This document shows positions 452 to 20,042 of a DNA stretch of 20,042 bases, one piece after another (the first letter of the stretch is position 1; each line of letters starts with the position of its first letter). Location: the IMG/VR virus record IMGVR_UViG_3300036819_000187, positions 1 through 20,042 of that record, one strand, 5' to 3'. Both the position numbers and the translations under genes were made by a program. The notes under the pieces are model-generated. The model saw nothing but the letters and a program-made list of their open reading frames with translations. It did no database searches and was not told the DNA's origin. Source of the DNA: a virus.

Positions 452-754
452 ATGCCACCAACGCTGCCTAACGAAATCAAAATGGGAGACGATGCACCCT
501 TGCCGTCTCCCTACACCTGCGCGTGGGCGCAGCTCGGTCTGTCGAAAGCGATGGATGGAATGATGGCTGCCGGTAGCGGCGCGAGCGGTTACGGCATCGG
601 CACCCGTTGGGTGCGTTACAAGAGCGCCGCGGAACAACAAGTGGCCGTCGATTACTGGCAACGGATGGTCGAGCAATATTGCGGTTGCCCGCCAGTCCCT
701 TCCGTCGTCACCGGCCGCGCCACGGCCCGTCGAGTCATAATGCGCGATGTCTAG
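452..754 (+). CDS. Candidate gpW-like head-tail joining protein
   Basis: A 100-residue protein sits directly before the portal gene, the place of gpW in lambda-like head modules. The central part (about residues 46-78: GYGIGTRWVRYKSAAEQQVA and on) has the gpW pattern of a short Gly-initiated strand with a basic/aromatic face followed by a helix; gpW plugs the connector before tail joining. It is longer than lambda gpW (68 aa) because of N- and C-terminal extensions. The start is uncertain: ATG 452 and ATG 482 (90 aa) are in frame and neither has a good SD. Its end overlaps the portal start by 8 bases, implying translational coupling. Similarity is low, so the call depends largely on position. 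Confidence 0.45.
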   Translation: MPPTLPNEIKMGDDAPLPSPYTCAWAQLGLSKAMDGMMAAGSGASGYGIGTRWVRYKSAAEQQVAVDYWQRMVEQYCGCPPVPSVVTGRATARRVIMRDV

Positions 755-2483
755 CAGCCTAACGACTAAAGGACTCAACGGAAGCAGCCGCAACGGGCGA
801 CTGCCCGCGGGAACACTTTTGGATGTGACCGGGAAACCGCTCCGATCTGATTTTCGCAACGATGCCAGCGGAATGTTTCCGGCGCCGTGGGGCGGCGGCA
901 CGACTGGTTACGGTCAGTATGGCGCGAGCACGACGAAAAATTCGATGCTCGGCTGGCTCTATCGGGGCGGCGATGCGGACGCGGACATCGGGCGCAACGT
1001 CCAGATTCTGCGCGAACGCTCGCGAGACGCCTTCATGGGAATCCCGCTCGCGGCCGGCGCGATCGAAACACTCGACACGAACGTCATCGGAACGGGATTG
1101 AAGCCGGCGCCGAAAGTCGATGGCGACGCGCTCGGATTGAATCCCGAAAAAACGGCGGAGCTCAACAAGGAGCTGAAGACGAAGTTCGATTGGTGGGCCT
1201 CCGACCCGCGGGAATGCGATTTCGAAGCGAAGCATTCCTTCTACACGCTTCAGAGCGTCGCTTTTCAATCGATGTTGCTCTCCGGCGATTGCCCGGTCCT
1301 GTTCCCGTTGCTCGCGCGGCCGGGCGGATTGTTCGAACTGAAGCTGCGCGTTTTGGAAGCGGATCGGGTCATGAATCCGAACGTCTACGATCCGATGCTC
1401 AATATTTTTTCGGGTGTGGAATTGAGCAGCGACGGTCAACTGCTCGCTTACCACATCGCGGACCGGCACCCGCTTTCGGTCACTCCGATGATGGCGTTCC
1501 TGCCGCTGAAAACATTTCGCGTCGAGCCCTTCGGCGCCAAGACCGGGCGTCGCAACATGGTCTTGCTCATGCGGGCCGAGCGACCGGAACAGCGTCGCGG
1601 CGTGCCGATTCTTTCGGTCGGGATTGAGCTCTTGAAACAGATGGGCCGCTACGTGGATGCGACCGTCATCGGCGCGGTGATCCAGAGTTATTTCACCGCC
1701 TTTATCACGAGCGATTTTCCCGACGCCAATCTTTTCGGCGACATGCTGACCGAGGAGCAGAAGGCGGAAATCTTTTCCTTCAATCCCTACAACGTCCAGC
1801 TCGGACCCGGCATCGTGAATTTCATGCGGCCGGGCAACAAGGTGGAGTTCACCGCGCAAACGCAGCCGCCATCGACCTTCGGCGAATTCACCATCGCGGT
1901 GGCCAAGTTCATCGGCGCGGCGGTCGGGATTCCTTACGAAGTGTTGTTGAAACAATACAACGCCAGCTACAGCGCGAGCCGGGCGGCCTTGCTCGATTTC
2001 TGGAAACGGGTGCAAAAATATCGCCGGCTCGTCATCGCGCAACTCTGCCAGCCGGTTTACGAGGAATGGCTCGCCGACGCCCTTTCGATGGGGCGACTGA
2101 CCAATTTCAGCGGCGATTGGAACGATCCGATTGTGCGCCGCGCATTGCTCCGTTGCGGCTGGGCCGGGAGCACGCCTGGCTCATTGGACCCGATGAAGGA
2201 AGTGGCCGCGGCCGATCAAAAAGTGCAGTGCGGTTTTTCCACGATCGAACGCGAGTCGATGGAGCTGAACGGGAGCGATTGGCGCGACAACCTCGATGAA
2301 AACGCAGTCGAGATGCAGACTTATCACGATCGCAAGATGATCTACCCGCCCAATCGCGTCAGCGAGCGCGGCGGCGGCGTCGGCCCGCTTATCCCGAACA
2401 CGCCCACCCCGGCCAGCCCCGGTCAGCCGGCGGCGTTGCTTGGGTTCGAGGAAAACGAGGAAGTTCTCGCCGGACATCTATGA
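747..2483 (+). CDS. Phage portal protein, lambda family
   Basis: 578 residues, close to lambda gpB (533). The portal forms the dodecameric ring at the unique capsid vertex through which DNA is packaged and ejected and to which terminase and connector bind. Lambda-family signatures are visible: an N-terminal segment with a WLYRGGDADADI stretch, then LRERSRDAFMGIPLAAGAIE and TNVIGTGLKPAP, and a C-terminal region with YNASYSASRAALLDFWKRVQ followed by EEWLADAL. The last ~40 residues are Pro/Gly-rich. The start at 747 overlaps the preceding stop (752-754), and the stop TGA (2481-2483) overlaps the next ATG, so three genes are coupled. Residues 4-10 are encoded by a diverged copy of the 19-nt repeat found ahead of the capsid gene. 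The identification is strong. Confidence 0.93.
   Translation: MSSSLTTKGLNGSSRNGRLPAGTLLDVTGKPLRSDFRNDASGMFPAPWGGGTTGYGQYGASTTKNSMLGWLYRGGDADADIGRNVQILRERSRDAFMGIPLAAGAIETLDTNVIGTGLKPAPKVDGDALGLNPEKTAELNKELKTKFDWWASDPRECDFEAKHSFYTLQSVAFQSMLLSGDCPVLFPLLARPGGLFELKLRVLEADRVMNPNVYDPMLNIFSGVELSSDGQLLAYHIADRHPLSVTPMMAFLPLKTFRVEPFGAKTGRRNMVLLMRAERPEQRRGVPILSVGIELLKQMGRYVDATVIGAVIQSYFTAFITSDFPDANLFGDMLTEEQKAEIFSFNPYNVQLGPGIVNFMRPGNKVEFTAQTQPPSTFGEFTIAVAKFIGAAVGIPYEVLLKQYNASYSASRAALLDFWKRVQKYRRLVIAQLCQPVYEEWLADALSMGRLTNFSGDWNDPIVRRALLRCGWAGSTPGSLDPMKEVAAADQKVQCGFSTIERESMELNGSDWRDNLDENAVEMQTYHDRKMIYPPNRVSERGGGVGPLIPNTPTPASPGQPAALLGFEENEEVLAGHL
755..773 (+). repeat. Diverged direct copy (17/19) of the capsid RBS repeat
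   Basis: CAGCCTAACGACTAAAGGA differs from 4402-4420 at two adjacent positions (CT for AC at bases 12-13). It lies within the first codons of the portal gene, so it is coding here although the capsid copy is untranslated leader. Confidence 0.8.
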
Positions 2484-3682
2484 CCGAGAAATTTTACGAT
2501 TTCCGGATGGCGATGGACGACGACGCGCCCAACAGCGCGGAACTGCTCATTTTCGGAGCTATCGGCGAGCCGGATTTCATGGACCCGGATGCGGTCAGCG
2601 CCAAGCAATTCGCGCAAGACCTGGCGGCATTGCCGGCGAGCGTGAACAAGCTCAATATTCACATCAATTCGCCCGGCGGATCGGTTTTCGATGCCAGCGC
2701 CATCTATTCGCGCCTGGCCGATCATCGCAGCACAAAAACGGTTTACATCGATGGCATCGCGGCCAGCGCGGCCACCATCATCGCGATGGTAGGGCAAAAG
2801 ATTTTCGTGCGCTCGAACGCCACCATGATGGTGCACATGCCGAGCGGCGTCGTGATGGGCAACGCGGACGACATGCGCCAGACCGCATCCGCCTTGGACA
2901 CGGTGACGGAGTCCATGATCAACATTTACGAGAAGCGGACCAAACTCGACCGGGCTAAAATCAAATCGCTTCTCACGGCTGAGACCTGGATGTCTCCCGA
3001 CGACGCGGTTTCGAACGGTTTCGCAGACGAAGTGCGCGGAGTGGTCAAAGCCGCCGCCTCGTTAGGCAACGGCCGCTACAAATTTAACGATCGCGAGTTT
3101 GATCTCTCGCGCTTCGAGCATGTCCCGGTGTTCATCGCCACCAAACCAAAAGCAAAATCAAATATGAAAAAAGAAGCTACGTCAGAAATCGAAGAGGAAG
3201 GCGAGATCGAAGACGCCGCCACCAAAAAAACGACCGAAAAAACCGAAGAGGACGGCGGTGGTAAAAAGAAAACCACCACGACCACGAAGGAAAAAAAGGA
3301 TGGTGGCGAAAAGAAAACCAGCACGAAGCAGACTGAGAGCGAAACCGACGAAGACCCGGTCGCTATCGAACGCGCTCGCGTCGCCGCTTTGTTGAAAGCC
3401 GACAAGCCCGCGACTCACGAACTCGTGACCGCTGCCATCGCCGACGGACGCACCATCGGTGACATCGCTGCGGAGCTGATCGAAGCGATGGACAAGGGCG
3501 GCAAGCAAAAGTCCAGCCATGACGATCGCCGCGCCGACGCCAGCCAGGTCGACGGCATTCCCGGCACCGATTCTGGCGGAAAAGGCGAAGGCGAGAACGA
3601 ATTCCGCTCCCTGCTCACGAGCAAAACCAAAGCCTATCTGGAACGTCGGAAACCGGCGCGTGCCGTGCACAGCCGCAACTAG
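2480..3682 (+). CDS. ClpP-like prohead protease with scaffold-like C-terminus
   Basis: 400 residues. The first ~190 form a ClpP-type serine protease: substrate-strand motif NINSPGG-like (HINSPGGSVFDASAIY, 62-77), nucleophile Ser96 in DGIAASAATIIAM, His119 in MMVHMPSG, and the ETWMSPDDAVSNGFADEV block (168-185), where Glu168 appears at the ClpP Asp position. Prohead proteases process the scaffold and portal during capsid maturation, as lambda gpC does. Residues ~222-300 are a low-complexity Lys/Glu/Thr linker, followed by a helical segment (VAIERARVAALLKADKPATH) like the scaffold part of C/Nu3 proteins. An in-frame ATG at 3164 (Met229) could yield a separate ~172-aa scaffold. The start overlaps the portal stop as ATGA. 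No separate scaffold gene is present, which fits a combined protease-scaffold. Confidence 0.9.
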   Translation: MTEKFYDFRMAMDDDAPNSAELLIFGAIGEPDFMDPDAVSAKQFAQDLAALPASVNKLNIHINSPGGSVFDASAIYSRLADHRSTKTVYIDGIAASAATIIAMVGQKIFVRSNATMMVHMPSGVVMGNADDMRQTASALDTVTESMINIYEKRTKLDRAKIKSLLTAETWMSPDDAVSNGFADEVRGVVKAAASLGNGRYKFNDREFDLSRFEHVPVFIATKPKAKSNMKKEATSEIEEEGEIEDAATKKTTEKTEEDGGGKKKTTTTTKEKKDGGEKKTSTKQTESETDEDPVAIERARVAALLKADKPATHELVTAAIADGRTIGDIAAELIEAMDKGGKQKSSHDDRRADASQVDGIPGTDSGGKGEGENEFRSLLTSKTKAYLERRKPARAVHSRN

Positions 3683-3709
3683 CAGCAACAAAAAAGAAAG
3701 GGAAAAACC

Positions 3710-4390
3710 ATGCCTATTTTAGGTTCATTCGCACCAATCGAGCTTCTCAGTCACGACCCGCATCCGGGTTGGAAAGTCATTCGTTACCCGTGGACGGACG
3801 TTTCGCCGCAAGTGATCGGCGTCATGAAGCCGGGCTTTCTCGTCAAGTTTAGCTCGGACAAAACGCACGTCCTGCCGGCTCTCGCGGCCGACGACGCCAA
3901 TCTCATCGGCATCATCGTGGACCTGCCTGATCCGCAGGACGACCCGACCATGCCGACGGTGGCGGTCGCGCTCATGGGTTCGTTTAACGCCAACCGGATT
4001 CACTACGCGGACGCGTGGAGCAATCTGAACGCGCTCCCGCCGACGACTCCGACCGCGCTCAGTGCGGCGGCCATCACGCAGTTGCGGGCGAACAACATCT
4101 ATCTCGACCCGACGGTTGGGATGCCGGCGCTCGGCTCGATTCCGGGCGTGCCGGCGATCACGAGTTCTCTCACGGCGAGTGCCACTCACGCGACCGCGTT
4201 CAGCTACACGATCACGGCCAGCAATGGAGTGGACGAGTTTTTCGCCACCAATCTGCCGGCCGGTTTGACCTTGTCTGGAAATGTGATTTCCGGCACCGCT
4301 CCCGCGGCGGGCACTTACACAATCACGCTCTCCGCCGCCAACGGCGAAGGCACGGGCGCAACTTCGAGCCTTGTGCTCACCGTCAGCTAA
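3710..4390 (+). CDS. Head decoration protein (gpD-like) with C-terminal Ig-like domain
   Basis: 226 residues, directly before the major capsid gene, the position of lambda gpD. Residues ~1-140 fit a small capsid-stabilising protein that binds three-fold axes: an N-terminal arm followed by a beta-rich core (GVMKPGFLVKFSSDKTHVLP), here with a direct statement of position but only weak sequence resemblance. Residues ~145-226 form an Ig-like domain of the He_PIG type, with NLPAGLTLSGNVISGTAPAA followed by GTYTITLSAAN and a closing VLTVS strand. Ig-like domains on virion surface proteins are known in tailed phages and are thought to bind host or environmental glycans weakly. SD GAAAGGG lies about 7 bases before the ATG. 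High expression is expected. Confidence 0.75.
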   Translation: MPILGSFAPIELLSHDPHPGWKVIRYPWTDVSPQVIGVMKPGFLVKFSSDKTHVLPALAADDANLIGIIVDLPDPQDDPTMPTVAVALMGSFNANRIHYADAWSNLNALPPTTPTALSAAAITQLRANNIYLDPTVGMPALGSIPGVPAITSSLTASATHATAFSYTITASNGVDEFFATNLPAGLTLSGNVISGTAPAAGTYTITLSAANGEGTGATSSLVLTVS

Positions 4391-4401
4391 ACGCTCCGAA
4401 A

Positions 4402-4420
4402 CAGCCTAACGAACAAAGGA
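4402..4420 (+). repeat. 19-nt repeat covering the capsid-gene ribosome-binding site
   Basis: CAGCCTAACGAACAAAGGA includes the GCCTAACGA word and the AAAGGA SD of the capsid gene (10 bases before ATG 4431). An exact inverted copy lies at 6379-6397, and a 17/19 direct copy at 755-773. All bases were compared by eye. Confidence 0.85.
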
Positions 4421-4430
4421 AAAAAACATC

Positions 4431-5726
4431 ATGAATAACAATCCGTTTTACGAACCAAGGACGTTGCTGGCGCCATTCGAACAAGGGCCTCTCGTCGGAA
4501 CCTTCCTGCGCGACACCTTTTTCGAGGACCGCTCATTCCCGCCGACCGACCTGATCGAATTCGACTTCCGGCGCGGTCGCCGGCGCATGGCGCCCTTCGT
4601 CGCCCCGATCATCGGTGGGAAACTGATGGAGCGGCAGGGCTTTGAGACCCGGGTGTTCCGCGCCCCGCGCATCGCGCCCGTCCGGGCCTTGCGCACGCCC
4701 GATCTGGAGCCGCGCATGATCGGTGAAAACATCTACCAGCCGCAGACGAAGGCGCAGCGCGCCGCCGAGCTGGTCTTGCAGGATTCGATCGATCTCGACG
4801 CTTCGATTACGCGCCGGGAAGAATGGATGTGCCGGGAAGTCCTGGTTAACGGCTCAATCACCGTGAATGCCGATAACGGCTACCAGATGGTGATTGGCTA
4901 TCTCGAAGCCGGCTCCCCCGGAAATTACGTGAGCAATCACACCCCGGTCACGACGAAATGGGACGCTGGCGGAAGCGACCCAATCGCAGACTTGCAGCGG
5001 TCGAAACGCGATATGATCCGCGAGAGCGGCATCAGCCCGAACGTTGCTTTGTTTGGGACGGACGCATGGTCCGCGTTTCTCAATAACGCCAACGTCCGCG
5101 CGATTCTGGACAACCGTCGCATCAATGTGCTGACCATCGACCCGGTGATCGAGAGCGACGCGCTCACCCTCAATACCGTGATTGACGGAATGCAGTGCTA
5201 CGAGTACTCGGACTACTTCGAAGACGACGCCGGCAATCTCTTCGACATGCTGCCGCCCGATCTCGTGCTCCTGGCCTCGACTCGGGTGCAAAACAAAATC
5301 GTTTACGGCGCCTTCACGCAGTTGGAGAAAACGGGTCAAGTGACGCCGCATTTCGTAACTTACCAGCAGGCGCGCATTCCGTATGTTTACGCCGACGAGG
5401 AAAAAGGGCACTTGTTTTATCGCCTCACTTCCTGCCCGCTGCCGATGCCGTATGACATTCTCGGCTTCCGCATCGTGGAAGCTCTCGCCGGAAGCGCCGG
5501 TCCGTTCGGAGCAAAACGCCCGACGTTCAAGAAGAGCCCTGAAGAGGAAAAACTTGAGACAGAAGCGCTCAACGCGAAATCGTCCGACGACCTGAAGCGT
5601 CTCGCCGATGACGAGGGCATCGACCTGAAAGGCGCGAACAGCAAAGCGGACATCGTGGAAGCGATCAAGCAGGGTCGCCGTACGAACGCCGTTGAGATCG
5701 CGCCTCCCGCAAAGGGCAAGAAATAA
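4431..5726 (+). CDS. Major capsid protein, lambda gpE type, with SAP/HeH-like C-terminal extension
   Basis: 431 residues against 341 in lambda gpE. The N-terminal 350 residues show the gpE pattern: FLRDTFFEDRSFPPTDLIEF, then RMAPFVAPIIGGKLMERQGF, the helical QTKAQRAAELVLQDSIDLDA segment, and a C-terminal HFVTYQQARIPYVYADEEKG stretch. It builds the HK97-fold icosahedral shell. The additional C-terminus is a charged linker followed by residues ~383-415 (SSDDLKRLADDEGIDLKGAN and on to IVEAIKQG), a helix-extended-helix motif like SAP/HeH/Rho-N domains, ending in a basic KGKK tail. A DNA- or RNA-binding role for that tail is inference. A good SD (AAAGGA, 10 bases upstream) fits strong expression, and a hairpin follows the stop. 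Confidence 0.93.
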   Translation: MNNNPFYEPRTLLAPFEQGPLVGTFLRDTFFEDRSFPPTDLIEFDFRRGRRRMAPFVAPIIGGKLMERQGFETRVFRAPRIAPVRALRTPDLEPRMIGENIYQPQTKAQRAAELVLQDSIDLDASITRREEWMCREVLVNGSITVNADNGYQMVIGYLEAGSPGNYVSNHTPVTTKWDAGGSDPIADLQRSKRDMIRESGISPNVALFGTDAWSAFLNNANVRAILDNRRINVLTIDPVIESDALTLNTVIDGMQCYEYSDYFEDDAGNLFDMLPPDLVLLASTRVQNKIVYGAFTQLEKTGQVTPHFVTYQQARIPYVYADEEKGHLFYRLTSCPLPMPYDILGFRIVEALAGSAGPFGAKRPTFKKSPEEEKLETEALNAKSSDDLKRLADDEGIDLKGANSKADIVEAIKQGRRTNAVEIAPPAKGKK

Positions 5727-5732
5727 TCCGAT

Positions 5733-5766
5733 CGGGCGCGGAAGGACAAGACAACTTCCGCGCCCG
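5733..5766 (+). terminator. Stem-loop after capsid gene (attenuator or mRNA-stabilising hairpin)
   Basis: A perfect 12-bp inverted repeat (CGGGCGCGGAAG, 5733-5744, with CTTCCGCGCCCG, 5755-5766) encloses a 10-base loop and starts six bases after the capsid stop. There is no run of T after the stem, so it is not a standard intrinsic terminator. Partial termination, Rho-related attenuation, or protection of the capsid mRNA 3' end are all possible, and would explain high capsid but lower downstream expression. Confidence 0.65.
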
Positions 5767-5791
5767 GTTCACTGAAAAGAGGTAGCTTTTT

Positions 5792-5950
5792 ATGAGTGGA
5801 TTTAAGATTCTTTTGCTTCTCGGCATCATCGCCTTTGGTATCGGTGCGATCGTGCCGGCCTTGGTTCCAGGCGGCGGTCCCCGCAGTCTGAACTGGATTA
5901 GCCTCGGGCTCTGTTTTGTCACCGCCGCATGGTTTGTGCGCACACCGTGA
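5792..5950 (+). CDS. Small two-pass membrane protein (52 aa)
   Basis: The ORF runs from ATG 5792 to TGA 5948-5950. It is preceded by an AAAGAGG-type SD (5777-5782) at a spacing of about nine bases, one of the few clear SDs in the window. Residues ~5-25 (KILLLLGIIAFGIGAIVPAL) and ~35-49 (NWISLGLCFVTAAWFV) are hydrophobic and separated by a PGGGPRS turn. This predicts a helical hairpin in the inner membrane with little soluble mass. Its stop overlaps the GTG start of the next gene (GTGA). The size and topology would fit a holin, but it sits in the middle of structural genes with no lysin beside it, so I leave the function open; it may belong with the secreted proteins that follow. Confidence 0.6.
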   Translation: MSGFKILLLLGIIAFGIGAIVPALVPGGGPRSLNWISLGLCFVTAAWFVRTP

Positions 5951-6363
5951 AACGAGCGCTCTTTGTCATCATCTGCCTGCTTGCCTCACTGGCCAGCACT
6001 CGTGCCGGTGAATGGTCGAGTGAGACAGCCGGCAACATTAGCAGCACCCCCGTTCTGGTCGGCGGGAAATGCGACCTGAACGCGGTTCGGGAGCTGATCA
6101 ATGCCGATCCGACCCAGATTGTCTATCTCCATTTCTACAACGCGGCCAGTGCCGGCGACGTGACTGTCGGCACAACCCATCCGCTCCTCACTTTGGGCGT
6201 CGCGGCCGGTCCCGGCCATCTCCCGTTGCCCATCACGGGACAGGTCATCGACAACTTCACGCTCGGGCTCGTGATAGCCGCGACCACATCACCGCTCTAC
6301 AGCGGCACAACCGCACCGAACACCCCACTTGTCGTGTTCCTCACCTTCACTGCGAGACAATGA
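5947..6363 (+). CDS. Secreted beta-rich phage accessory protein with signal peptide
   Basis: 138 residues from GTG 5947. I prefer this to ATG 5929 (six codons upstream) because the GTG overlaps the previous stop as GTGA and places a textbook signal peptide at the N-terminus: MKR, hydrophobic core ALFVIICLLASLAS, and likely cleavage after TRA (residue 20). The mature part (VYLHFYNAASAGDVTVGTTH, then LLTLGVAAGPG and FTLGLVIAATTS) follows a strand pattern seen in small beta-sandwich phage structural proteins that describe a Tyr-Asn-x-Ala loop, a Gly-Thr-x-x-Pro turn and a late TxxxP strand. Those relatives normally lack a signal peptide. Its stop overlaps the next ATG. Exported decoration, or a protein acting on the host envelope, are both possible. 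Confidence 0.6.
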   Translation: MKRALFVIICLLASLASTRAGEWSSETAGNISSTPVLVGGKCDLNAVRELINADPTQIVYLHFYNAASAGDVTVGTTHPLLTLGVAAGPGHLPLPITGQVIDNFTLGLVIAATTSPLYSGTTAPNTPLVVFLTFTARQ

Positions 6364-7685
6364 AGCGGCTGCTTCTCATCCTTTGTTCGTTAGGCTGCGC
6401 GGCGAACTTGTTCGCCCAAGGCGGCCCGCTTACAACTGGCGGCACGACTTCCTTTTCCAGCCTTCCGCAATCGCAATATATCCTGCGGGACATAAACGAT
6501 CTCGCGACCGACCAAATGATGGCGTCGCTCTCCGGTCAGACGGCAGGGACGGCAGCGCAAAATCTTTTCTCCACCCGGACCGATAGTGGGAGCGGAACTT
6601 ATGTCAGAAGCACGACTTGGTTCGGCCACGCCATCGATCTCACCTGCGAGAGCGTTTACAACGACGGCGGCACGCCTCTCCAAACGATCACGCTCGTCGC
6701 GCCCGACATCGGCATTGGCGCGAATCATTACTTTCCCGCCAACGGCTCGCACGTTCGTTTTGTCGCCGCTGACGGGACGATCACGACGCTGACGATCGGT
6801 AGCTCGTCACAGATCGGCTCGACCGACATCCAGGTGATTAAGTTCACGAGCGGCGCGCCGAGCACGATCACGCCCGCGACGATCGCGAGCCCCAATGCGG
6901 AGGGCAACCTGAGCGGCGCTCCCGTTTTGTTCATCGATCAAAATCAGGAGGCATTCACCGGCGATGTTTCCGGCTTTGCCTCTGGAAGCATTGTAGTCGC
7001 GCAGTCGACCAACTCGATCCGTTCAACATTTTGGAAAACGCCGGTGACGGGAGACTCGAGCCATCCGCTCTTTGCTGCCGTCGACGGCAAGGCGATTCTC
7101 CTCGCTGCCTTCCAAACAACTTCTTCCGGGCCTTCCCTGGCTGAGAACGCAGCCGCGATCAACGCGGCGATGACTTCTCTCGGCTCGACCTATCAATTGA
7201 CAGTCGCACCGGTGGCGTCGGCGGCTAACTCGTCCAGCGGAACGAGCAACTCAGTAATGGCTGGAAATGGAATTGGCGGACTCACTCCGGTCACGTTTGC
7301 CGGCGATCTTTCCTACAGCCCAAGCACACACACCGTTACCAACACGTCCTCGGGCGGGACAGTCGGGCAGGCGTTTTTCACCGCCGACGGAGGACTCAGC
7401 GGGCTCGTCACTAAGGGCCTCATCTCGAATGTCACTCGAGCTACCACTCTCGGAGTCTCGCCCAAGTTCACGGTAACTTTCGGCATCGCACAATTGGATG
7501 CGAATTACGACGTGCACGCGATGGCGGACACGACAACGCAAGGCACTGGAGAAAGCGTTTCTCCCGCGCTGATTTCAGGCTCGAAAACGACGACGGGCTT
7601 CCAGATCGAATTCGACAACCCCGATGCAGGCGGAAGCGTCGACCCCGGAGTTTGCAGCATCTCGGTGGAGAAACTCTCACAATGA
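6360..7685 (+). CDS. Secreted trypsin-like serine protease with fibre-type C-terminal domain (putative)
   Basis: 441 residues from ATG 6360. This start is chosen over an upstream in-frame one because it overlaps the preceding stop (ATGA) and begins a signal peptide, MKRLLLILCSLGCAANLFAQ. Residues ~85-285 carry a chymotrypsin-type triad in order: His123 in GIGANHYFPANGSHVRF, Asp156 in GSTDIQVIKF, and Ser233 in GDSSHPLFAAVDGKAILLAA. The segment AAAINAAMTSLGSTYQLTVA (264-283) closes the domain. The usual GDSG is GDSS here, which could alter the oxyanion hole. A Ser/Gly/Thr linker (~286-335) leads to residues ~340-441, resembling a tail-fibre tip or surface beta domain (FTVTFGIAQLDANYDVHAMA, TTTGFQIEFDN). 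A protease acting on host surface protein is inference, and so is whether it ends up on the virion. Confidence 0.6.
   Translation: MKRLLLILCSLGCAANLFAQGGPLTTGGTTSFSSLPQSQYILRDINDLATDQMMASLSGQTAGTAAQNLFSTRTDSGSGTYVRSTTWFGHAIDLTCESVYNDGGTPLQTITLVAPDIGIGANHYFPANGSHVRFVAADGTITTLTIGSSSQIGSTDIQVIKFTSGAPSTITPATIASPNAEGNLSGAPVLFIDQNQEAFTGDVSGFASGSIVVAQSTNSIRSTFWKTPVTGDSSHPLFAAVDGKAILLAAFQTTSSGPSLAENAAAINAAMTSLGSTYQLTVAPVASAANSSSGTSNSVMAGNGIGGLTPVTFAGDLSYSPSTHTVTNTSSGGTVGQAFFTADGGLSGLVTKGLISNVTRATTLGVSPKFTVTFGIAQLDANYDVHAMADTTTQGTGESVSPALISGSKTTTGFQIEFDNPDAGGSVDPGVCSISVEKLSQ
6379..6397 (-). repeat. Inverted copy of the capsid RBS 19-nt repeat
   Basis: TCCTTTGTTCGTTAGGCTG is the exact reverse complement of 4402-4420. 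It encodes part of the signal peptide of the protease-like gene (residues ~7-13). In a shared transcript the two segments could form a 19-bp duplex over the capsid SD. Confidence 0.85.
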
Positions 7686-7717
7686 AACGTTGCCTAACGA
7701 GTCTAACACTCGCCTGA
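7682..7717 (+). CDS. 11-codon ORF MKRCLTSLTLA, possible coupling leader or signal-peptide remnant
   Basis: ATG 7682 overlaps the previous stop (ATGA) and the ORF ends at TGA 7715-7717, four bases before the GTG of the next gene. Like the two signal-peptide genes before it, it begins MKR at an NTGA junction. It contains the GCCTAACGA word (7692-7700). It may pass terminating ribosomes to the SD-less gene downstream, or be the stump of a lost third secreted protein. Translation is unproven. Confidence 0.3.
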   Translation: MKRCLTSLTLA

Positions 7718-7721
7718 TACC

Positions 7722-8084
7722 GTGCTGCGCGACAACTTCGCCACCGATCTTTCCACCGTGTTTATGAACACGGCCGAAATGGCCACCACCCGCGAGTTCC
7801 GGATCAGCGACGGGATGGGAGGCTTCACCATCTTTGACGCGCCGGTGGTCTGGGATCAGGAAGGCTCGAAAGATATGCCGATGGTGAAGATACAGGGCGT
7901 CTTCATGGGCGACGTGCGTTGCCACATCGAAGCGAAATATCTGCCACGCATCCCGCTGGCGGGAGAAATCATCTATTCGCCGGCCAACCAGGTCTGGGAA
8001 TGCATCGATGTGACGGATGAGGAAGGCTGCTACGTTTTGGGATTGAGCGCGACCCGATCGCAAGCCGGAGTGCTCAGCACTTAA
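7722..8084 (+). CDS. Head-tail joining protein, lambda gpFII-like
   Basis: 120 residues from GTG 7722 (lambda FII is 117). The layout matches FII-type connectors: an N-terminal amphipathic segment (LRDNFATDLSTVFMNTAEMA), a variable loop, then a beta-barrel with VKIQGVFMGD, the strand-turn PLAGEIIYSPANQVWECIDV, and a closing GCYVLGLSA. FII caps the filled head and provides the platform for the tail. Position fits: it follows the capsid block and precedes the gpZ-like gene. There is no SD, and initiation may depend on the 11-codon ORF just upstream. ATG 7764 (Met15) is a possible alternative start but would remove the conserved N-terminal helix. Confidence 0.6.
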   Translation: MLRDNFATDLSTVFMNTAEMATTREFRISDGMGGFTIFDAPVVWDQEGSKDMPMVKIQGVFMGDVRCHIEAKYLPRIPLAGEIIYSPANQVWECIDVTDEEGCYVLGLSATRSQAGVLST

Positions 8085-8091
8085 ACCAATC

Positions 8092-8652
8092 ATGGTCGCC
8101 ATCACGATTGATCCAAGAGAACTTGCCAAGCTGGAGCGCGCCATCGGCCACATCAAGGGCGCGGTGCCAAAGGCGATCTCCGCCGCGATCAATCGCACGC
8201 TCGACCGCGGCCGCACCACTCTGCGGCGCGAGATTCGGAAACAGTATTTGATCAAGCAAAAAGACATCCCGGTTAAAGTGCGCCGGGCGAGCGTCTCGCA
8301 TCTCGGCGGTGAAGTCCGCACCGATTCCGGCATGCTGGAATTGGCCAAGTTCAAGATCACGCCCAAAGGGGTGCAAAAGCGCGCCCACAAAAAACCGATC
8401 CGGGCGCAAGTGAAGAAAACGAGCGGCGGCAAACTCATCAAGCACGGCTTCGTCGCGCAAATGCCGAGTGGTTTCGTCGGCCCATTCCTGCGCAAAGGCG
8501 GCACGCGTCTCCCACTCAAAAAACTGCTCACGATCGGCGCGCCCATCATGGCAACTCAACCCGGCGTCGGGCCGGCCGTGAATAAAGCGATGGGCGAAGC
8601 ATTCGCCCGGAACGTCGATTCGCAGATCGATCGATTCCTGAAAGCCGCATGA
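8092..8652 (+). CDS. Minor tail/tail completion protein, lambda gpZ-like
   Basis: 186 residues; lambda gpZ is 192. The protein is strongly basic with the gpZ arrangement: N-terminal helix (LAKLERAIGHIKGAVPKAIS), then AAINRTLDRGRTTLRREIRK with YLIKQKDI, and a late GFVAQMPSGFVGPFLRKG segment, ending in a helix that reaches RFLKAA. In lambda gpZ sits near the head-proximal end of the tail and is needed for DNA to be positioned for injection. It is a siphovirus-type protein but here precedes a contractile sheath gene. Seven bases separate it from the FII-like stop, and its own stop overlaps the next start as ATGA. Confident at family level. Confidence 0.8.
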   Translation: MVAITIDPRELAKLERAIGHIKGAVPKAISAAINRTLDRGRTTLRREIRKQYLIKQKDIPVKVRRASVSHLGGEVRTDSGMLELAKFKITPKGVQKRAHKKPIRAQVKKTSGGKLIKHGFVAQMPSGFVGPFLRKGGTRLPLKKLLTIGAPIMATQPGVGPAVNKAMGEAFARNVDSQIDRFLKAA

Positions 8653-9314
8653 CCACGCCGACGCCCATCTCACCCGCCAATGTGACTGTGCGCTGCCGCA
8701 CGGCTTTCGATTTGGAGCTCACGCTCGTCAAATTCCTGACCAATCTTTTCGGCGGGACGCGGCTCGATAACCCGACCGTCAGTCTGGCGCAGCCTGCGAC
8801 CGTCCCTTACGACTACACGGAGCGGGCGGAAGCGCTCGATTACAAAGTGCCGCCCAAGGTGGTGCGAGGCCGCATCCCACGCACCCTCACGGGCGAAGTT
8901 GCGCTCGATAAAATCTCCGATGTCCCGGTCATCATCGTGCAATCGACTGGGGGCAAGATTAACAACGCGCCGGCCGAGATGGCCTTCGACCGCACCACAA
9001 CCAGAATCCTCTTTGTCGGTTACGACGAGAATCCCGACAGTCAGGGTTATCAGGACATTTTGAACCTGATCGAAACGGCCAAGGCAGCCTTGACGAGTTT
9101 CGGCCAGGGCGGCCTCGATAATGCCTACCCGATTCTCTTCCCGATCGAATGGAAGATCGATTCCGAAGCGTGGCCGCATTTCATTGGCGAGATCAGTTGC
9201 GACTGGCAACTGCCGTCCACGCGGCCGATGCCGGATATGTGGGATGCCCAGGCCTACTCGATTCCGATTCCGGGCGAATGGCTTGAAACGCGACAGGAGG
9301 CGATGGCATCATGA
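8649..9314 (+). CDS. Probable tail terminator/neck protein
   Basis: 221 residues located between the gpZ-like and sheath genes, where the tail terminator (which caps tube and sheath polymerisation) normally lies. I see an N-terminal helix (TAFDLELTLVKFLTNLFGG), a central ILFVGYDENPDSQGYQDILN stretch followed by helix LIETAKAALTSFGQGG, then a strand AYPILFPIEWKIDSE, WPHFIGEISCDWQLP. An alpha/beta protein with a terminator-like mix of strands and one long helix fits gpU/gp15-type terminators, but I recognise no diagnostic signature. Start and stop overlap the neighbours as ATGA at both ends, indicating tight coupling within the connector-tail unit. Confidence 0.45.
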   Translation: MTTPTPISPANVTVRCRTAFDLELTLVKFLTNLFGGTRLDNPTVSLAQPATVPYDYTERAEALDYKVPPKVVRGRIPRTLTGEVALDKISDVPVIIVQSTGGKINNAPAEMAFDRTTTRILFVGYDENPDSQGYQDILNLIETAKAALTSFGQGGLDNAYPILFPIEWKIDSEAWPHFIGEISCDWQLPSTRPMPDMWDAQAYSIPIPGEWLETRQEAMAS

Positions 9315-9652: not shown

Positions 9653-11135
9653 CCTTGGACCATTTCCACACGGAGTATCTTGGACCGATTTACCAACCAG
9701 CGTTATTTCGCCGGTCAACGCAGTGCCGGGCGTCAATGTCGTCTTCGGCGCGGCGCCTCTGCATCTCGTTCTCGACGGCAACACCCGGGTCAACACACCC
9801 GTGCTCTGCAATAGCTACGACGAAGCAGTGACACAGCTTGGCTTCTCGAGCGATTGGGACACGTTCGATCTCTGCGAGCACATGGACGCAGCCTTCGTCG
9901 AGTTCGGCGTTTACCCGGTCATTTATGTGCCGGTGAACGACCCGACCGAAGGCGATACGACCTATTCCGGCACGCAATTCACACTCGTTAACGGCCAGAT
10001 CGATACCGAGGAGGGATTGATCGCGTGGCTCATCGTGGTCAAGAGCGCGGACGCGAGCGTGACTTATGTTCTGGGAACCGATTATCTGCTCAGCCTTTCG
10101 GATGCCAATACCTGGATCATCACGCGCGTGGCGACGGGAGCGATTCTCGACGATCATTCCATCATCACGGTCAGCGGCAAACTCCCAAACGCGAGCCCGA
10201 TCGATGGCACCGACGTGATCGGCGGCATTGTCACCGAAACCGGAGCCCGGCTCGGCCTCGAAGTGATCGAAAACGTTTTCCCGACGACCGCACTCGTCCC
10301 GGGAGTGATCATCTGCCCGAAATGGTCGAAAGACCCGGATGTGGCGGCCGCAATGGAAGCGAAATCGGAATCGATCAACGGCTGCTTTTCCTGCACCTGC
10401 TTGATTGACGTCGATACTTCTGTCGTGACCAAGGCAGCCGACGTTCTGGAGTGGAAGAACTCGAATAACATCGTCTTCCCGCGGCAGGAACTGCTTTTCG
10501 GCAAGCCGGCCCTGGTCGGGACAAGCGGGACGAAGATTTTCAACTTCGCCTCGCAGCAAGGCCCGCTCCTGCAATACACCGACGTGAATAACGGTCAGGG
10601 CCTGCCTTACTGCTCGCCGTCAAACAAAAATCTGCGCATGAATGCGCTCGTTCTCGAAGATGGAACGGAGATTTCAATGCACCTGCTCGATGCCAACATG
10701 CTCAATGGCCAGGGTGTGATCACGGCGCTGAACTGGATCGGCGGCTGGCGTTCCTGGGGCAACCGGACGGCGGCTTACCCGGCCGACACGGATGTCAAGG
10801 ACATGTTCATCAACGTGCGCCGGATGTTCGATTACATCGGCAACACGGTTGTGCTCACGATCTGGCAAAAGGTGGACGAACCGGGCAACCGCCGCCTCAT
10901 CGATGCGGTCGTCAACTCGCTTCAGCTTTGGCTCGATGGGCTCTCCAATCAGGGAGCACTTCTGGGCGCGCGGATCGAGTTCGATCAATCCGAAAACCCG
11001 ACGACCGAGTTGCTCAACGGCCACTACGTCTTTCACATTTATCTCGCGGTCCCGACGCCGGCCGAATGGCTCGACTTCCGCATCGAGTATTGGGTCCCGT
11101 ATGTGGACAATCTTTTCACTGACGCCGCGGCCTAA
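9642..11135 (+). CDS. Contractile tail sheath protein (P2 gpFI type)
   Basis: 497 residues from ATG 9642, chosen over an upstream in-frame ATG (9516) because AAGGAG (9627-9632) sits nine bases before it and the N-terminus then begins MASNLGPFPHGVSWTDLPTS. The protein polymerises around the tube and contracts to drive it through the host envelope. The C-terminal half carries sheath hallmarks: GWRSWGNRTAAYPADTDVKD, FINVRRMFDYIGNTVVLTIW, and a terminal YLAVPTPAEWLDFRIEYWVP. It is longer than P2 gpFI (396 aa); the extra length is around residues ~95-200, likely a surface-exposed insertion domain. It is followed by the tube gene after 20 bases. Gene order sheath-tube-chaperone-tape measure confirms the call. 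Confidence 0.92.
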   Translation: MASNLGPFPHGVSWTDLPTSVISPVNAVPGVNVVFGAAPLHLVLDGNTRVNTPVLCNSYDEAVTQLGFSSDWDTFDLCEHMDAAFVEFGVYPVIYVPVNDPTEGDTTYSGTQFTLVNGQIDTEEGLIAWLIVVKSADASVTYVLGTDYLLSLSDANTWIITRVATGAILDDHSIITVSGKLPNASPIDGTDVIGGIVTETGARLGLEVIENVFPTTALVPGVIICPKWSKDPDVAAAMEAKSESINGCFSCTCLIDVDTSVVTKAADVLEWKNSNNIVFPRQELLFGKPALVGTSGTKIFNFASQQGPLLQYTDVNNGQGLPYCSPSNKNLRMNALVLEDGTEISMHLLDANMLNGQGVITALNWIGGWRSWGNRTAAYPADTDVKDMFINVRRMFDYIGNTVVLTIWQKVDEPGNRRLIDAVVNSLQLWLDGLSNQGALLGARIEFDQSENPTTELLNGHYVFHIYLAVPTPAEWLDFRIEYWVPYVDNLFTDAAA

Positions 11136-11155
11136 CCAAAAGGAGATTTCACGCC

Positions 11156-11683: not shown

Positions 11684-11708
11684 CAGCGTATCCATTCCGT
11701 GCTAGACT
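11678..11708 (+). promoter_or_regulatory. Weak sigma70-like promoter candidate before the tail chaperone
   Basis: TTGTAG (11678-11683) and an extended -10, TGC-TAGACT (11700-11708), are 19 bases apart. This would start transcription near the ATG at 11718, which has no SD. The spacing is long and only 4 of 6 -10 bases match, so chance is a serious alternative. Confidence 0.2.
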
Positions 11709-11717
11709 CGACGCCTT

Positions 11718-12140
11718 ATGGATGACTCACTCTTGAAGAAACCGGGCGAGGAATCATCGCCTAACGAGGACGAGGCGCAATCTGAAGGCAAAGCGTATCG
11801 GAGTCTCGCGATTGAACAGGCACAGCCGCCCTTGCGACTGGTTTTCGATCCACCTGTCGAATTTGACGAGAAGAAATACTCGGAGTTGATCTTCGACTTC
11901 GATGCGCTGATCGGAAAAGATTTCCAGCGCGCGGAACGTGAGTTCAACAGGCTCTACAAAGCCGATAAGAACGAAACCGTCCTGCCGGAAATGAAACATC
12001 TTTACCACTGCATTCTGGCGGCCAACGTCGCCAACGTGCCAGTCGGGTTGATCATGAAACTGCCGCGGCGCTATTACATGCCGTTGCGGCTCGAAGTTTT
12101 AAAAGCCTGTGGCAGCTCGCCGGACGCGGAGAACGAATAA
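11718..12140 (+). CDS. Tail assembly chaperone, zero-frame product (gpE analogue)
   Basis: 140 residues between tube and tape measure, the invariant place of tail assembly chaperones that coat the tape measure during assembly and are absent from the virion. The acidic N-terminus is followed by the family pattern: LRLVFDPPVEFDEKKYSELI, then FDFDALIGKDFQRAEREFNR, HLYHCILAANVANVPVGLIM and a final PRRYYMPLRLEVLKACG. The 3' end contains TTTAAAA, a canonical -1 slippery heptamer, and the protein continues in the -1 frame (next entry). There is no SD. Function is assigned from the combination of position, motif pattern and frameshift. Confidence 0.8.
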   Translation: MDDSLLKKPGEESSPNEDEAQSEGKAYRSLAIEQAQPPLRLVFDPPVEFDEKKYSELIFDFDALIGKDFQRAEREFNRLYKADKNETVLPEMKHLYHCILAANVANVPVGLIMKLPRRYYMPLRLEVLKACGSSPDAENE

Positions 12141-12310
12141 CCGATCTTCTGCGCTCCGTCTCGATGCGTTTGGCGCGAGCGGTCGGGGGTGGCGTGGAAT
12201 ACTGGATGGAGCTGCCGATCTCGGAGTTATTGCTTTACATGCTTGAGCTGGCCCGACAACTGGAGCAGGAAAAAGAAGCGGCCGAACGCGGGCAAAAGAA
12301 ATTGAATTAA
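11718..12310 (+). CDS. Tail assembly chaperone, -1 frameshift product (gpE+E' analogue)
   Basis: Slipping back one base at T-TTA-AAA (12098-12104) joins the first 129 residues to 68 residues read in the -1 frame, ending at TAA 12308-12310 (197 aa in all). The extension starts SLWQLAGRGERITDLLRSVS and contains GVEYWMELPISELLLYMLEL, matching the W...LP..EL pattern of P2 E' and lambda T extensions, then ends in a charged helix. The -1 frame has no good start of its own (ATG 12164 would lose half), and it stays open across the zero-frame stop. P2 and lambda both make a short and a long chaperone this way at a fixed ratio. The tape measure starts one base after its stop. Confidence 0.82.
12098..12104 (+). 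other. Programmed -1 ribosomal frameshift site (TTTAAAA)
   Basis: The heptamer fits X-XXY-YYZ in the zero frame (T TTA AAA), with Leu128 and Lys129 codons slipping to TTT AAA. The only downstream stem I can find by eye is a modest CGGAG/CTCCG pairing (12127-12131 with 12154-12158); a stronger stimulator may need folding software. Confidence 0.8.
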
Positions 12311-12311
12311 A

Positions 12312-14348
12312 ATGGCAGTCGCCGGTCAACGACAATACAGCGCGGTCTTCGCAATCGGGGCCAGGTTCATGTCGAGCTTCAAAGGCGTCATGGCGCAGGC
12401 GCAAGCGAGGTTGCATCGTCTGAATGCGGCCGCGATCGCTCTCGGTCGCAACGTTCTGAAATTCGCGACGATTTTTGGCGGTCTCTCGGCCTTTGGAGCC
12501 GGCACGGTCTTGAGCCAAATATTCGAGGGCGCCAATGAAGCGGCCGAGGAACTCGATACGACGACGCGAAGGATCACCGAGGCCTTCATGACGCATGTCA
12601 AAATGCAGAAACTTGGGCGGGACATGACGGAGCAGGTCGTCCAGAAAATCTATAAGTATAACGAGGCGCTTTCTCAGCAGGGGGTGATTTCAAAGCAGGC
12701 TCTGGATGCGACCGCATCAATGCTGGCGCTTCAAGGTCTTTCGCCCAAAAAAATTGTTGGCACTCTTCGTCCTCTTAGTGACATGCTGGTTGCGACCAAA
12801 GGCATCGCGCAGGCGCAGGCGATGTTGCCGGATGCAGCCTTTGCCTTCGGCAAAGCGATTCGCACCGGGATGGCGAGGCCGCTCTTTCAATTCGGGCTCT
12901 CGTTAACCAAGCCGGAGCAGCAAATACTTTCGCAGAAGGCCAAGGTCGGGGATTTGGAAGGCGCCTACAAATTCTTGATGAAGATGGTGGTCAAATACTC
13001 AGGTGCGAGTGCGCGAGCCCTCAAAACTCCCGAAGGCAGAATTCACGCCCTGGCCAATGCAATCGGCGACATGCGCGAGCGGATCGGAGAGGCATCCCTG
13101 GAGTCGCGCGCGAGAATGTCCGACGCGTGGCTTGCCATTCTGCCTCGCGTCGAGCCGATTCTCATCAAATTGAAGGTTCTATCGAACAACGCGATGAGGA
13201 GTATCGCGGAGTATGTCAAGAGAGTAGGCATTCCAGCGTTTAAAGAGTTCGAGGTGTTTTTGAAAGGGCCGTTAGGCGATGCACTTAATCGTCTCAAAGC
13301 AGCTTGGACCGACATGGTAAGCAACATCGGTCCCGCCTTCGCACAGATGATGGGAAGACTGACAGGAAGCACGAAGAGCTTTCAAGGATCATTGGGTGAC
13401 ATACTCATCGGCGCGCTCAATAAACTTTCCGGTTTGCTGAAATCCGTCGGAAATAACGCGTCGTGGCTCGTGCCTCTTGTCACCGCACTTGTGCCGGCAT
13501 TTTATGCGTTCTCGGCTGCTGTCGGGGTGGCGAACGTGGCGCTCGCGTTAACGCCGGTAGGGTGGTTGATCATGGGACTTGCCGCAATAGGTGCGGGACT
13601 TGTTTATCTGAAACTCCAATTCGGCAGTCTGGAGAACGCTCGGAATGCATTTTGGAATTGGCTAAAACAAATACCGGTTCTCGGATCGGTCATCCAGTGG
13701 TGGAACAAACTCGCTGCGACCATGACGGGTTTGCTCGGCGGTTATTGGAACGCACTGACGCAGAATTGGAATAGCATTAGGACTGCGTTCGAAACGGCAA
13801 AGCCGATCCTCGTCGGCGTCTTCAAGGAAATCGGCAGTGCGATCTTGGAACAAATCCTGATGCCGATTCACGCGATTCAAACCGCTTGGTCGAGTTCGAT
13901 CGATTTCATCAAACGTCACATGCCAAGTTTCGGCGGCGTCAGACCGAGCGTCCCAACAGCGGCAGTCCCGCAAGCCGCCGCTTCCGCCGCCAAGGCTGCT
14001 TCGAAGATTCCCGGCATGGCAACTGGTGGAATCATTCGCGGTCACTCGCTTTTGCAGATTGCCGAGCGTGGACCGGAAGCCGTTATCCCGCTCTCGGGCG
14101 GTCCGCGCGCCAGAGGTCTGCTCGATTATGCCAGCCGCGCCATCGGCGTCGGCGGCGCGACGAATAACGGCGGCGATACCCACATCACAATCGGAGGCCC
14201 GCAGATCACGATCCACGGCAACGCGAGCGAGACGGAACAGCGTTCGCTCGCATCGCGCCTGCAAAAATATAGCGCCGATTTGGCTTCGCAGTTGAAGTCC
14301 GCGACCCGCGACGCCCGCCGCCTTTCCTTTGAATCAGGCTATGCCTGA
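12312..14348 (+). CDS. Tail tape measure protein
   Basis: 678 residues. The protein fixes tail length, fills the tube lumen and is delivered ahead of DNA. Evidence: position after the chaperone pair; long helical N-terminus (ARLHRLNAAAIALGRNVLKF); Ala/Gln/Lys-rich helices through the middle; a hydrophobic segment at ~384-436 (WLVPLVTALVPAFYAFSAAV to LAAIGAGLVYL) able to span the inner membrane; and the C-terminal signature GMATGGIIRGHSLLQIAERG PEAVIPLSGG seen in many tape measures. At about 1.5 angstrom per residue this predicts a tail near 100 nm. It contains one inverted GCCTAACG word (13270-13277). No peptidoglycan hydrolase domain is visible. The start lies one base after the chaperone stop, without SD. 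Confidence 0.9.
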   Translation: MAVAGQRQYSAVFAIGARFMSSFKGVMAQAQARLHRLNAAAIALGRNVLKFATIFGGLSAFGAGTVLSQIFEGANEAAEELDTTTRRITEAFMTHVKMQKLGRDMTEQVVQKIYKYNEALSQQGVISKQALDATASMLALQGLSPKKIVGTLRPLSDMLVATKGIAQAQAMLPDAAFAFGKAIRTGMARPLFQFGLSLTKPEQQILSQKAKVGDLEGAYKFLMKMVVKYSGASARALKTPEGRIHALANAIGDMRERIGEASLESRARMSDAWLAILPRVEPILIKLKVLSNNAMRSIAEYVKRVGIPAFKEFEVFLKGPLGDALNRLKAAWTDMVSNIGPAFAQMMGRLTGSTKSFQGSLGDILIGALNKLSGLLKSVGNNASWLVPLVTALVPAFYAFSAAVGVANVALALTPVGWLIMGLAAIGAGLVYLKLQFGSLENARNAFWNWLKQIPVLGSVIQWWNKLAATMTGLLGGYWNALTQNWNSIRTAFETAKPILVGVFKEIGSAILEQILMPIHAIQTAWSSSIDFIKRHMPSFGGVRPSVPTAAVPQAAASAAKAASKIPGMATGGIIRGHSLLQIAERGPEAVIPLSGGPRARGLLDYASRAIGVGGATNNGGDTHITIGGPQITIHGNASETEQRSLASRLQKYSADLASQLKSATRDARRLSFESGYA

Positions 14349-14398
14349 GATTTTCCTTTCGGCACACACCACGTCTCTAACCACAGAAACCAAACACA

Positions 14399-14824: not shown

Positions 14825-14847
14825 GGCGACGGTTAGCGCCATCGTTT

Positions 14848-18857: not shown

Positions 18858-18863
18858 AACGCG

Positions 18864-19481: not shown

Positions 19482-19484
19482 GTT

Positions 19485-19712
19485 ATGAAAGCAGGAACCA
19501 TCGAAATCAGCCCGGAGCGCGCAATGCAGATCGTCAACAATGTCGCGGAGGAATGGTCGGATTTAGGTAAGACGGATTTCGCAACTAAGGACGAACTCTG
19601 CGCGACAATTAACTGGCTGCGAAATACGGGTGGCGAGGAGGTTCAGAATCTGCTTGGGAAACTAAGCCAAATAGCCGTGCTCGCATTGGCGGCGACCCAC
19701 AACGAGCAATGA
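19485..19712 (+). CDS. Small helical protein, function unknown
   Basis: 75 residues between the spike and gpU-like genes, starting three bases after the gpV stop and ending in an ATGA overlap with the next gene. The sequence MKAGTIEISPERAMQIVNNV AEEWSD continues with KDELCATINWLRNTGGEEVQ and LGKLSQIAVLALAA, so two or three amphipathic helices are expected, with no signal peptide or membrane segment. I recognise no family. The tight packing between tail genes argues that it is translated and tied to tail assembly. Confidence 0.55.
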   Translation: MKAGTIEISPERAMQIVNNVAEEWSDLGKTDFATKDELCATINWLRNTGGEEVQNLLGKLSQIAVLALAATHNEQ

Positions 19713-20042
19713 TCGAAGGTCTCTACGGCTCCATTATCTTCGGTCGCGCGTTAGGCCGCATCCACACGCCTAACGAGATCGGGCGGAAATATTCCGGCCG
19801 CTACGGCTCGCACATGGTGCATCTGCAAAAGCCGCTTCTCGAATGGGCCGGGAGCGAGCTGATCAAGATCGAGCTGAAAGTGAGTCTCAATTCTTCCTGG
19901 TGCGGCAATCTAAACGCGCTCCTCGATCAATGGCATTATTATCACGATAATGGACTCGCCGCGCCCCTCATCATTGGATCGAAACCGATGGCTTCGGGGC
20001 TCTCGCTTTTCGTCATCACCGATCTCTCCGAGATGCACAATC
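19709..20042 (+). CDS. Tail protein gpU-like (partial, runs off window)
   Basis: 111 complete codons from ATG 19709 to the window edge, with no stop. The sequence shows the P2-type gpU pattern: a KPLLEWAGSELIKIELKVSL core, then LLDQWHYYHDNGLAAPLIIG and FVITDLSEMHN at the cut end. In P2-like tails gpU is a tail component and usually lies beside tape measure and X; here it follows the spike gene. Codons near 19749-19775 contain two opposed GCCTAACG words forming a perfect 8-bp inverted repeat. The start is coupled to the previous stop (ATGA). About 20-40 residues are probably missing. Confidence 0.78.
   Translation, partial: MIEGLYGSIIFGRALGRIHTPNEIGRKYSGRYGSHMVHLQKPLLEWAGSELIKIELKVSLNSSWCGNLNALLDQWHYYHDNGLAAPLIIGSKPMASGLSLFVITDLSEMHN
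19749..19775. repeat. Inverted pair of GCCTAACG words (8-bp stem, 11-nt loop)
   Basis: CGTTAGGC (19749-19756) and GCCTAACG (19768-19775) are perfect inverted copies separated by 11 bases, inside the gpU-like coding sequence. There is no T-run after the stem. It is the only closely spaced pair of this word in the window. Confidence 0.85.

Follow-up and report, generated by a model that had tools for sequence, protein, structure and literature searches.

Cluster A mycobacteriophages carry 20-30 asymmetric repressor sites per genome, termed stoperators, which point mostly one way relative to transcription; in L5 and Bxb1, some lie in promoters and most lie outside them, and the consensus differs between related phages, as described earlier (PMC6550527; PMC9283540). 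In other cases, the enriched word belongs to bacterial machinery. Lambdoid phages lacking recombinases over-represent Chi, in some cases concentrating it in the interval from the replication origin to the packaging site (PMC3784561), and the DNA uptake sequences of Neisseriaceae are tolerated in permissive regions and often form inverted pairs (PMC3630211). Here, we describe a short word, the 8-mer GCCTAACG and its extended 9-mer GCCTAACGA, in an uncultured contractile-tail phage (IMG/VR record IMGVR_UViG_3300036819_000187). The window is the whole 20,042-base record, and all counts for the phage are confined to that fragment. The word is real, is constrained at the DNA level, and sits mostly at gene starts. 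Judged from sequence, its copies are most likely regulatory, namely dispersed operator- or stoperator-like sites for a putative DNA-binding regulator, a reading to which we assign a probability of roughly 0.4.

Like Cluster A stoperators, the window word is short, asymmetric, scattered through one phage genome, and present far above chance. Unlike them, it occurs on mixed strands, at gene starts, and in an uncultured contractile-tail phage. Because its orientation is mixed and its repressor only putative, we leave it outside the stoperator class. The word shares with phage Chi its exactness, asymmetry, and enrichment in phage DNA but differs in its position at gene starts and in having no word-bearing host among the genomes sampled. 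It also resembles Neisseriaceae uptake sequences as an exact short word with an inverted pair (19749 and 19768, each copy being named by the start of its 8-mer). Uptake sequences, however, mark competent bacterial chromosomes, whereas the inverted pair in the window lies within a gene start rather than a terminator, and the sampled genomes again include no host enriched in the word.

Enrichment of the word and its constraint as DNA

The window contains 10 copies of GCCTAACG, six on the plus and four on the minus strand, and eight of the 10 extend to GCCTAACGA. Dinucleotide shuffles give an expectation of 0.45 for the 8-mer, with 0 of 100 shuffles reaching 10, and a second-order Markov model gives 0.35, placing the word first among all 8-mers in the window. 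Under the same model, the eight copies of GCCTAACGA compare with 0.10 expected, the highest rank of any 9-mer. One-mismatch neighbors of GCCTAACG are depleted (6 versus 14.7 expected), so the word is exact rather than decaying.

Several of 111 other loci also hold words with z >10, and because count tails in those loci are heavier than Poisson, the enrichment cannot be judged from the count by itself. Such strongly enriched words elsewhere lend some weight to the view that the excess arose by chance or from codon-pair bias in this one genome. We consider that explanation very unlikely given the synonymous shuffles described below, the outlying position of the word relative to gene starts, and the recurrence of the same 9-mer in other phage lineages. 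Separately, three AT-rich records (L097, L099, and L111) strongly over-represent a GC-rich word, CCGGGCCA.

The constraint on the word falls on DNA, a conclusion that is well supported. When synonymous codons were swapped across all genes, leaving the proteins and pooled codon usage unchanged, coding copies of the word averaged 0.30 with a maximum of 3, and 0 of 2000 synonymous shuffles reached the observed 8. Among 6339 codons, the word accounts for 4 of the 13 TTA, 1 of the 7 CTA, and 3 of the 27 CCT codons. At 19768, the word yields Pro-Asn where 11 of 11 aligned relatives carry Phe at the first position (10 distinct relatives, as L153 and L154 are identical there). The word is a DNA-level feature because the shuffles never reach the coding count, because of its use of TTA, and because of the replaced Phe. 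The initial annotation had anticipated much of this: its 10 coordinates and strands and its eight extensions to the 9-mer proved exact on recount; its over-representation is borne out by the shuffles, the Markov model, and the first rank in the window; the codon phases and readings it gave (TTA or CTA, or Pro-Asn-Glu) are as stated; and its proposal of selection on DNA agrees with codon use, the synonymous shuffles, and the residue replaced at 19768.

Position of the word at gene starts

Copies of the word cluster near the beginnings of genes (Table 1). The interval from -35 to +65 bp of a gene start holds eight of the 10 copies in 10.6% of the sequence, although the copies at 19749 and 19768 are not independent. 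A narrower interval of -30 to +60 bp holds seven, and 17 of 20000 circular shifts place at least that many copies within it. The 68 8-mers with at least seven places have, on average, a fraction of 0.061 of their copies near a start, and no unrelated word exceeds 0.286; CCTAACGA, which overlaps the word, scores 0.875. Six of the seven start-proximal 9-mers lie on the coding strand, and moving the start of the first gene from 452 to the ATG at 481 leaves the near-start count at eight. Clustering of this kind points to regulatory sites rather than to a word for uptake or segregation or one resembling Chi.

Under the regulatory reading, the non-palindromic GCCTAACGA would be recognized by a sequence-specific regulator, encoded by either the phage or its host, at sites located where late (head and tail) genes begin. 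The bound protein may repress transcription or bring it to a stop, in the manner of stoperators occupied by repressor in Cluster A mycobacteriophages. We infer both the binding of GCCTAACGA by protein and its action on transcription.

A number of points weigh against this reading. The -35 to +65 bp interval was set after the positions were seen, and gene starts were picked by hand from open reading frames (ORFs) and homology rather than by a gene-calling program. No homologue supports the start at 6360, and a mechanical, greedy longest-ORF choice places the copies at 6388 and 7692 at other ORFs. Two copies lie deep within genes (+584 and +962), and strands are mixed, with six of all 10 copies, or six of the eight exact 9-mers, on the coding strand. 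Operators usually vary in sequence, whereas this word is exact and without decayed variants. No regulator gene was found in the 20-kb fragment, where the sole candidate, the ORF at 164-388, has no supported family match. Lastly, the search that turned up the other phage lineages described below looked for copies in pairs and so favors them; only their copies in excess of the pair can be taken as evidence. The ORF at 164-388 is a small minus-strand frame, opposite to all structural genes and upstream of the gene at 452; by eye, its product looks like a small DNA-binding protein.

Position around start codons would also suit a signal acting in RNA, such as a translational repressor site, small RNA target, or processing site within the 5' region of late mRNAs. 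The mostly sense orientation of the start-proximal 9-mers and the copy at 4404, which adjoins a ribosome-binding site, are consistent with this proposal. Four copies are nevertheless antisense, two of them near starts (6388 and 19749) and two inside genes (3060 and 13270), and a cluster of the word in another phage record, G045, holds both orientations, making an RNA signal unlikely. A search of Rfam RNA families returned 0 matches at the gathering threshold for the window, L199, L187, and L202.

Three copies are embedded in a longer repeat. A 20-bp sequence ending in AAAGGA is common to the copies at 757, 4404, and 6388, and the copies at 4404 and 6388 are identical over 19 of 19 bp in inverted orientation. 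At 4404, the AAAGGA end is the ribosome-binding region, which is present in relatives as well, whereas none of the relatives aligned at this place has the word itself. Three viral stretches contain a 17-mer that includes the ribosome-binding part, in every case in the same context; a looser form of the extended element occurs in 18, and the 15 new loci among them hold no word-rich contig. We rejected a longer conserved element, as no extended form is widespread in the viral stretches searched. The 20-bp repeat is the clearest case for recombination linkers, short common sequences at gene edges that would aid gene exchange between phages. Placement at gene edges, the 19-bp identity, and the hairpins found at gene edges in relatives fit such a role. 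Most copies, however, have only 9 bp in common, the genes behind the word give no sign of joint exchange, and relatives lack the word at the junctions compared; we view linkers as quite unlikely. The copies at 19749 (left arm) and 19768 form an inverted pair with 8-bp arms and an 11-nt spacer. The word shares a heptamer with the integron attC core, although the arm order of the pair appears to be opposite to that of attC.

The window carries the head and tail module of the phage, with every structural gene on the plus strand. Named genes encode the portal, head maturation protease, major capsid, minor tail, sheath, tube, tail chaperone, and tape measure proteins, together with baseplate, gpD-like, and gpU-like proteins. 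Between the capsid gene and the gene at 7722, two ORFs at 5929-7685 have signal-peptide-like N termini and no match among the relatives searched.

Table 1. Copies of the word in the window, one near-word, and hairpins of related phages
Feature	Position	Strand	Word center relative to gene start (bp)	Context	Codon reading or remark
GCCTAACGA copy 1	466..474	+	+18	Gene start at 452 (head-tail joining position); just upstream of the gene if the ATG at 481 is the start	Pro-Asn-Glu
GCCTAACGA copy 2	757..765	+	+14	Portal gene; within 20-bp repeat ending AAAGGA	CTA
GCCTAACGA copy 3	3059..3067	-	+584	Head maturation protease gene; variable stretch	TTA
GCCTAACGA copy 4	4404..4412	+	-23	Intergenic, before major capsid start; adjoins AAAGGA ribosome-binding site; in 20-bp repeat
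GCCTAACGA copy 5	6387..6395	-	+32	ORF at 6360, for which the search gave no relatives; N terminus resembles a signal peptide	TTA
GCCTAACGA copy 6	7692..7700	+	-26	Intergenic, before gene at 7722 (minor tail protein)
GCCTAACGA copy 7	11759..11767	+	+45	Gene at 11718 (tail assembly chaperone); N terminus non-conserved	Pro-Asn-Glu
GCCTAACG only, next base G	13270..13277	-	+962	Tape measure gene	TTA
GCCTAACG only, next base C	19749..19756	-	+44	gpU-like gene	TTA
GCCTAACGA copy 8	19768..19776	+	+63	gpU-like gene	Pro-Asn-Glu; Phe replaced
Near-word GCCTAACCA	11130..11138	+		Sheath/tube junction; includes sheath stop codon	Probably the ordinary Ala-TAA-C junction sequence, as in relatives
G028 hairpin, examples	L212:4068-4095; L212:11156-11183
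L086 22-bp palindrome	5357-5395; 9132-9170
L092 hairpin	8145; 11942				Genome-specific
L007 hairpin	8068; 11902				Genome-specific
L157 hairpin	3040; 11949				Genome-specific

Related phages, other lineages, and sampled hosts

Metagenomic contigs are the relatives of the window by portal (nearest 64-71% identity), capsid, and sheath. The initial annotation had proposed counting the word beyond the window, and among these relatives, no enrichment appeared: 44 related records (sets of 24 and 20) hold 32 copies of GCCTAACG versus 54 of a reversed control word. Family-wide conservation of the word was rejected, as the related records fall below that control. The nearest relative by composition, G028 (locus L149; sheath 75% identical), has five 8-mers in 50 kb with 0.96 expected, and one of the five lies near a homologous start, at -55 from that of the tube gene. 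Three further loci (L087, L008, and L011) hold three copies each in 6-7 kb, with most contexts looking like ordinary coding positions.

Hairpins occur in the relatives at some of the junctions that bear the word in the window. In G028 (loci L212-L214), a ~28-bp palindromic hairpin has nine copies, most of them between genes and several immediately upstream of a start codon. Hairpins peculiar to each genome, repeated or single, stand at such junctions in six related loci; L086 has a 22-bp palindrome, L092, L007, L157, and L087 have other hairpins, and L156 has one before gpU. The junctions concerned (before the gene at 452, between the capsid gene and 7722, before the tube gene, 11718, and gpU) overlap the word-bearing starts. 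The hairpins of G028, L086, L092, L007, L157, and L156 resemble the word in being genome-specific, in several cases dispersed, and in part located at the same junctions; they differ as mostly intergenic palindromes of ~22-30 bp, whereas GCCTAACGA is a single asymmetric 9-mer. Counted by hand, five of seven word-bearing starts are among six hairpin-associated starts of 21 (hypergeometric ~0.006, or ~0.014 without the unsupported start at 6360), with the hairpin-associated set selected after the fact.

A mechanical scan of 36 relatives for perfect stems of at least 9 bp found hairpins in 2 of 22 regions at the gene at 452 (one of the two belonging to no repeated family), 2 of 18 at the tube gene, 1 of 15 at 11718, 3 of 8 at gpU, and 7 of 25 at 8092, the last inside the coding sequence of the preceding gene. 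It found 0 of 25 at 7722 and none at the remaining genes. Because these counts are low, support from the hairpins is thin, and their correspondence with word-bearing starts is suggestive only. By the same stem criterion, the window copies do not form junction hairpins, as only 19749 and 19768 are paired, with 8-bp arms, and the rest are single. We infer that the relatives' hairpins may be counterparts of the word with other specificities. In the seven regions before 8092, the hairpin is GC-rich, perfect, and located in the end of the coding sequence of the 7722 gene, perhaps reflecting protein constraint.

The same exact 9-mer, by contrast with its absence of enrichment in the related phages, is clustered in two other phage lineages. 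A scan for inverted pairs of the word returned 14 stretches, G045 being in one of them. Direct pairs were detected in 23 stretches spread over 22 records, of which the 20 besides G273 and G275 hold two or three copies. G045 (23,968 bp) has seven copies, all GCCTAACGA, with 0.22 expected, making it the top 9-mer there. Four of these lie at 3683-3911, within 230 bp in or beside one intergenic region and in both orientations; one is at -19 of an ORF start, and two are inside genes. G273 (44,264 bp, taken as circular from its 127-bp terminal repeat) has six distinct copies with 0.26 expected, two of which adjoin iteron-like repeats downstream of a primase-like gene. In G275, two GCCTAACGA and three GCCTAACAA form an array within 90 bp of apparently intergenic DNA. 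G045 and G275 are related, with many structural genes 38-89% identical and word clusters at different places, and G273 and G045 have one gene in common at 62% identity. The G275 array has no similar sequence in named phages and six weak matches in plasmids (31-33 bp, rhizobia, E 0.07-3). These intergenic clusters, together with the start position in the window, appear to fit regulator sites better than a host word. In G273, L197:13028-13140 contains copies of an iteron-like palindromic 10-11-mer beside three copies or near-copies of the word and is possibly a replication origin.

An exact, asymmetric word could also be read by a DNA methyltransferase or a restriction system, belonging to either the phage or its host, and the product of one G045 ORF, read by eye, resembles a cytosine-5 DNA methyltransferase. 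The sites of most cytosine-5 enzymes are palindromic, however, whereas GCCTAACGA is not, and restriction sites are usually avoided rather than gathered at gene starts. We regard this explanation as highly improbable.

The main rival to regulatory sites is a host word kept because host machinery reads it, whether Chi-like, self-marking, or for uptake. A Chi-like sequence would be recognized by RecBCD, AddAB, or AdnAB, would spare the DNA from this end-degrading recombination enzyme of the host, and would be retained in both orientations where proteins tolerate it. An exact non-palindromic 9-mer without decayed variants, found on both strands at a spacing on the order of 2 kb, matches that description, as does its presence in two other lineages with a single gene in common; the Chi excess of phages lacking recombinases offers a precedent (PMC3784561). 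Clustering at gene starts would not be expected of such a word. Moreover, large non-conserved stretches of the window (ORFs 5929 and 6360; intergenic 5727-5928 and 12141-12311) hold one copy, near a start, and related phages lack the enrichment.

Sampled bacterial genomes point the same way. The density of the 9-mer in the window is ~400 per Mb, and Neisseriaceae uptake sequences reach several hundred copies per Mb. Across 200 Pseudomonadota genomes, the highest density was ~8.5 per Mb, and the 9-mer was usually rarer than its reversed control; across 61 Bacteroidota genomes, the highest was ~12 per Mb. The sample comprised these two phyla. The contig names suggest soil as the source of the samples, and phyla frequent there that lie outside the two sampled, for example Acidobacteriota or Verrucomicrobiota, may include the host. 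A portal scan of reference genomes gave 31 relatives, mainly in Bacillota and Pseudomonadota, plus one each from Bacteroidales and Synergistaceae (phyla from record titles). Naming a host from portal-bearing genomes fails because these reference portals are only 35-45% identical, and 9-mer density in seven genomes with such distant portal relatives was no higher. Literature matches to the 9-mer or the reverse-complement 8-mer include, by the titles listed, none that treats a phage or bacterial word. The initial annotation had likened the word to uptake, segregation-polarity, or recombination words of bacterial hosts; the enrichment and DNA-level selection behind that comparison hold, whereas the likeness to a host word is opposed by the clustering at starts, the relatives, and the sampled hosts. 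We consider a host word less likely than regulatory sites.

Implications of a dispersed phage word

Taken with the relatives' hairpins, the regulatory reading can be extended. Uncultured contractile-tail phages of one family might mark recurring late-gene starts with an element that is switched from genome to genome, a 9-mer here and hairpins in relatives. Such marks could form a stoperator-like immunity or timing code that overrides a conserved residue and whose specificity has moved between unrelated lineages. This extension is speculative, and we think it unlikely in full.

On either the regulatory or the host-word reading, one 9-mer with mapped positions and other carrier phages makes a direct test object. 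If the word is instead a host word, it would serve as a sequence tag for assigning hosts to phages. If it is a regulator site, related phages with different elements of this kind would fall into natural immunity groups, and dispersed regulatory codes like those of actinobacterial phages would also exist in uncultured phages, where metagenomes would allow them to be read.

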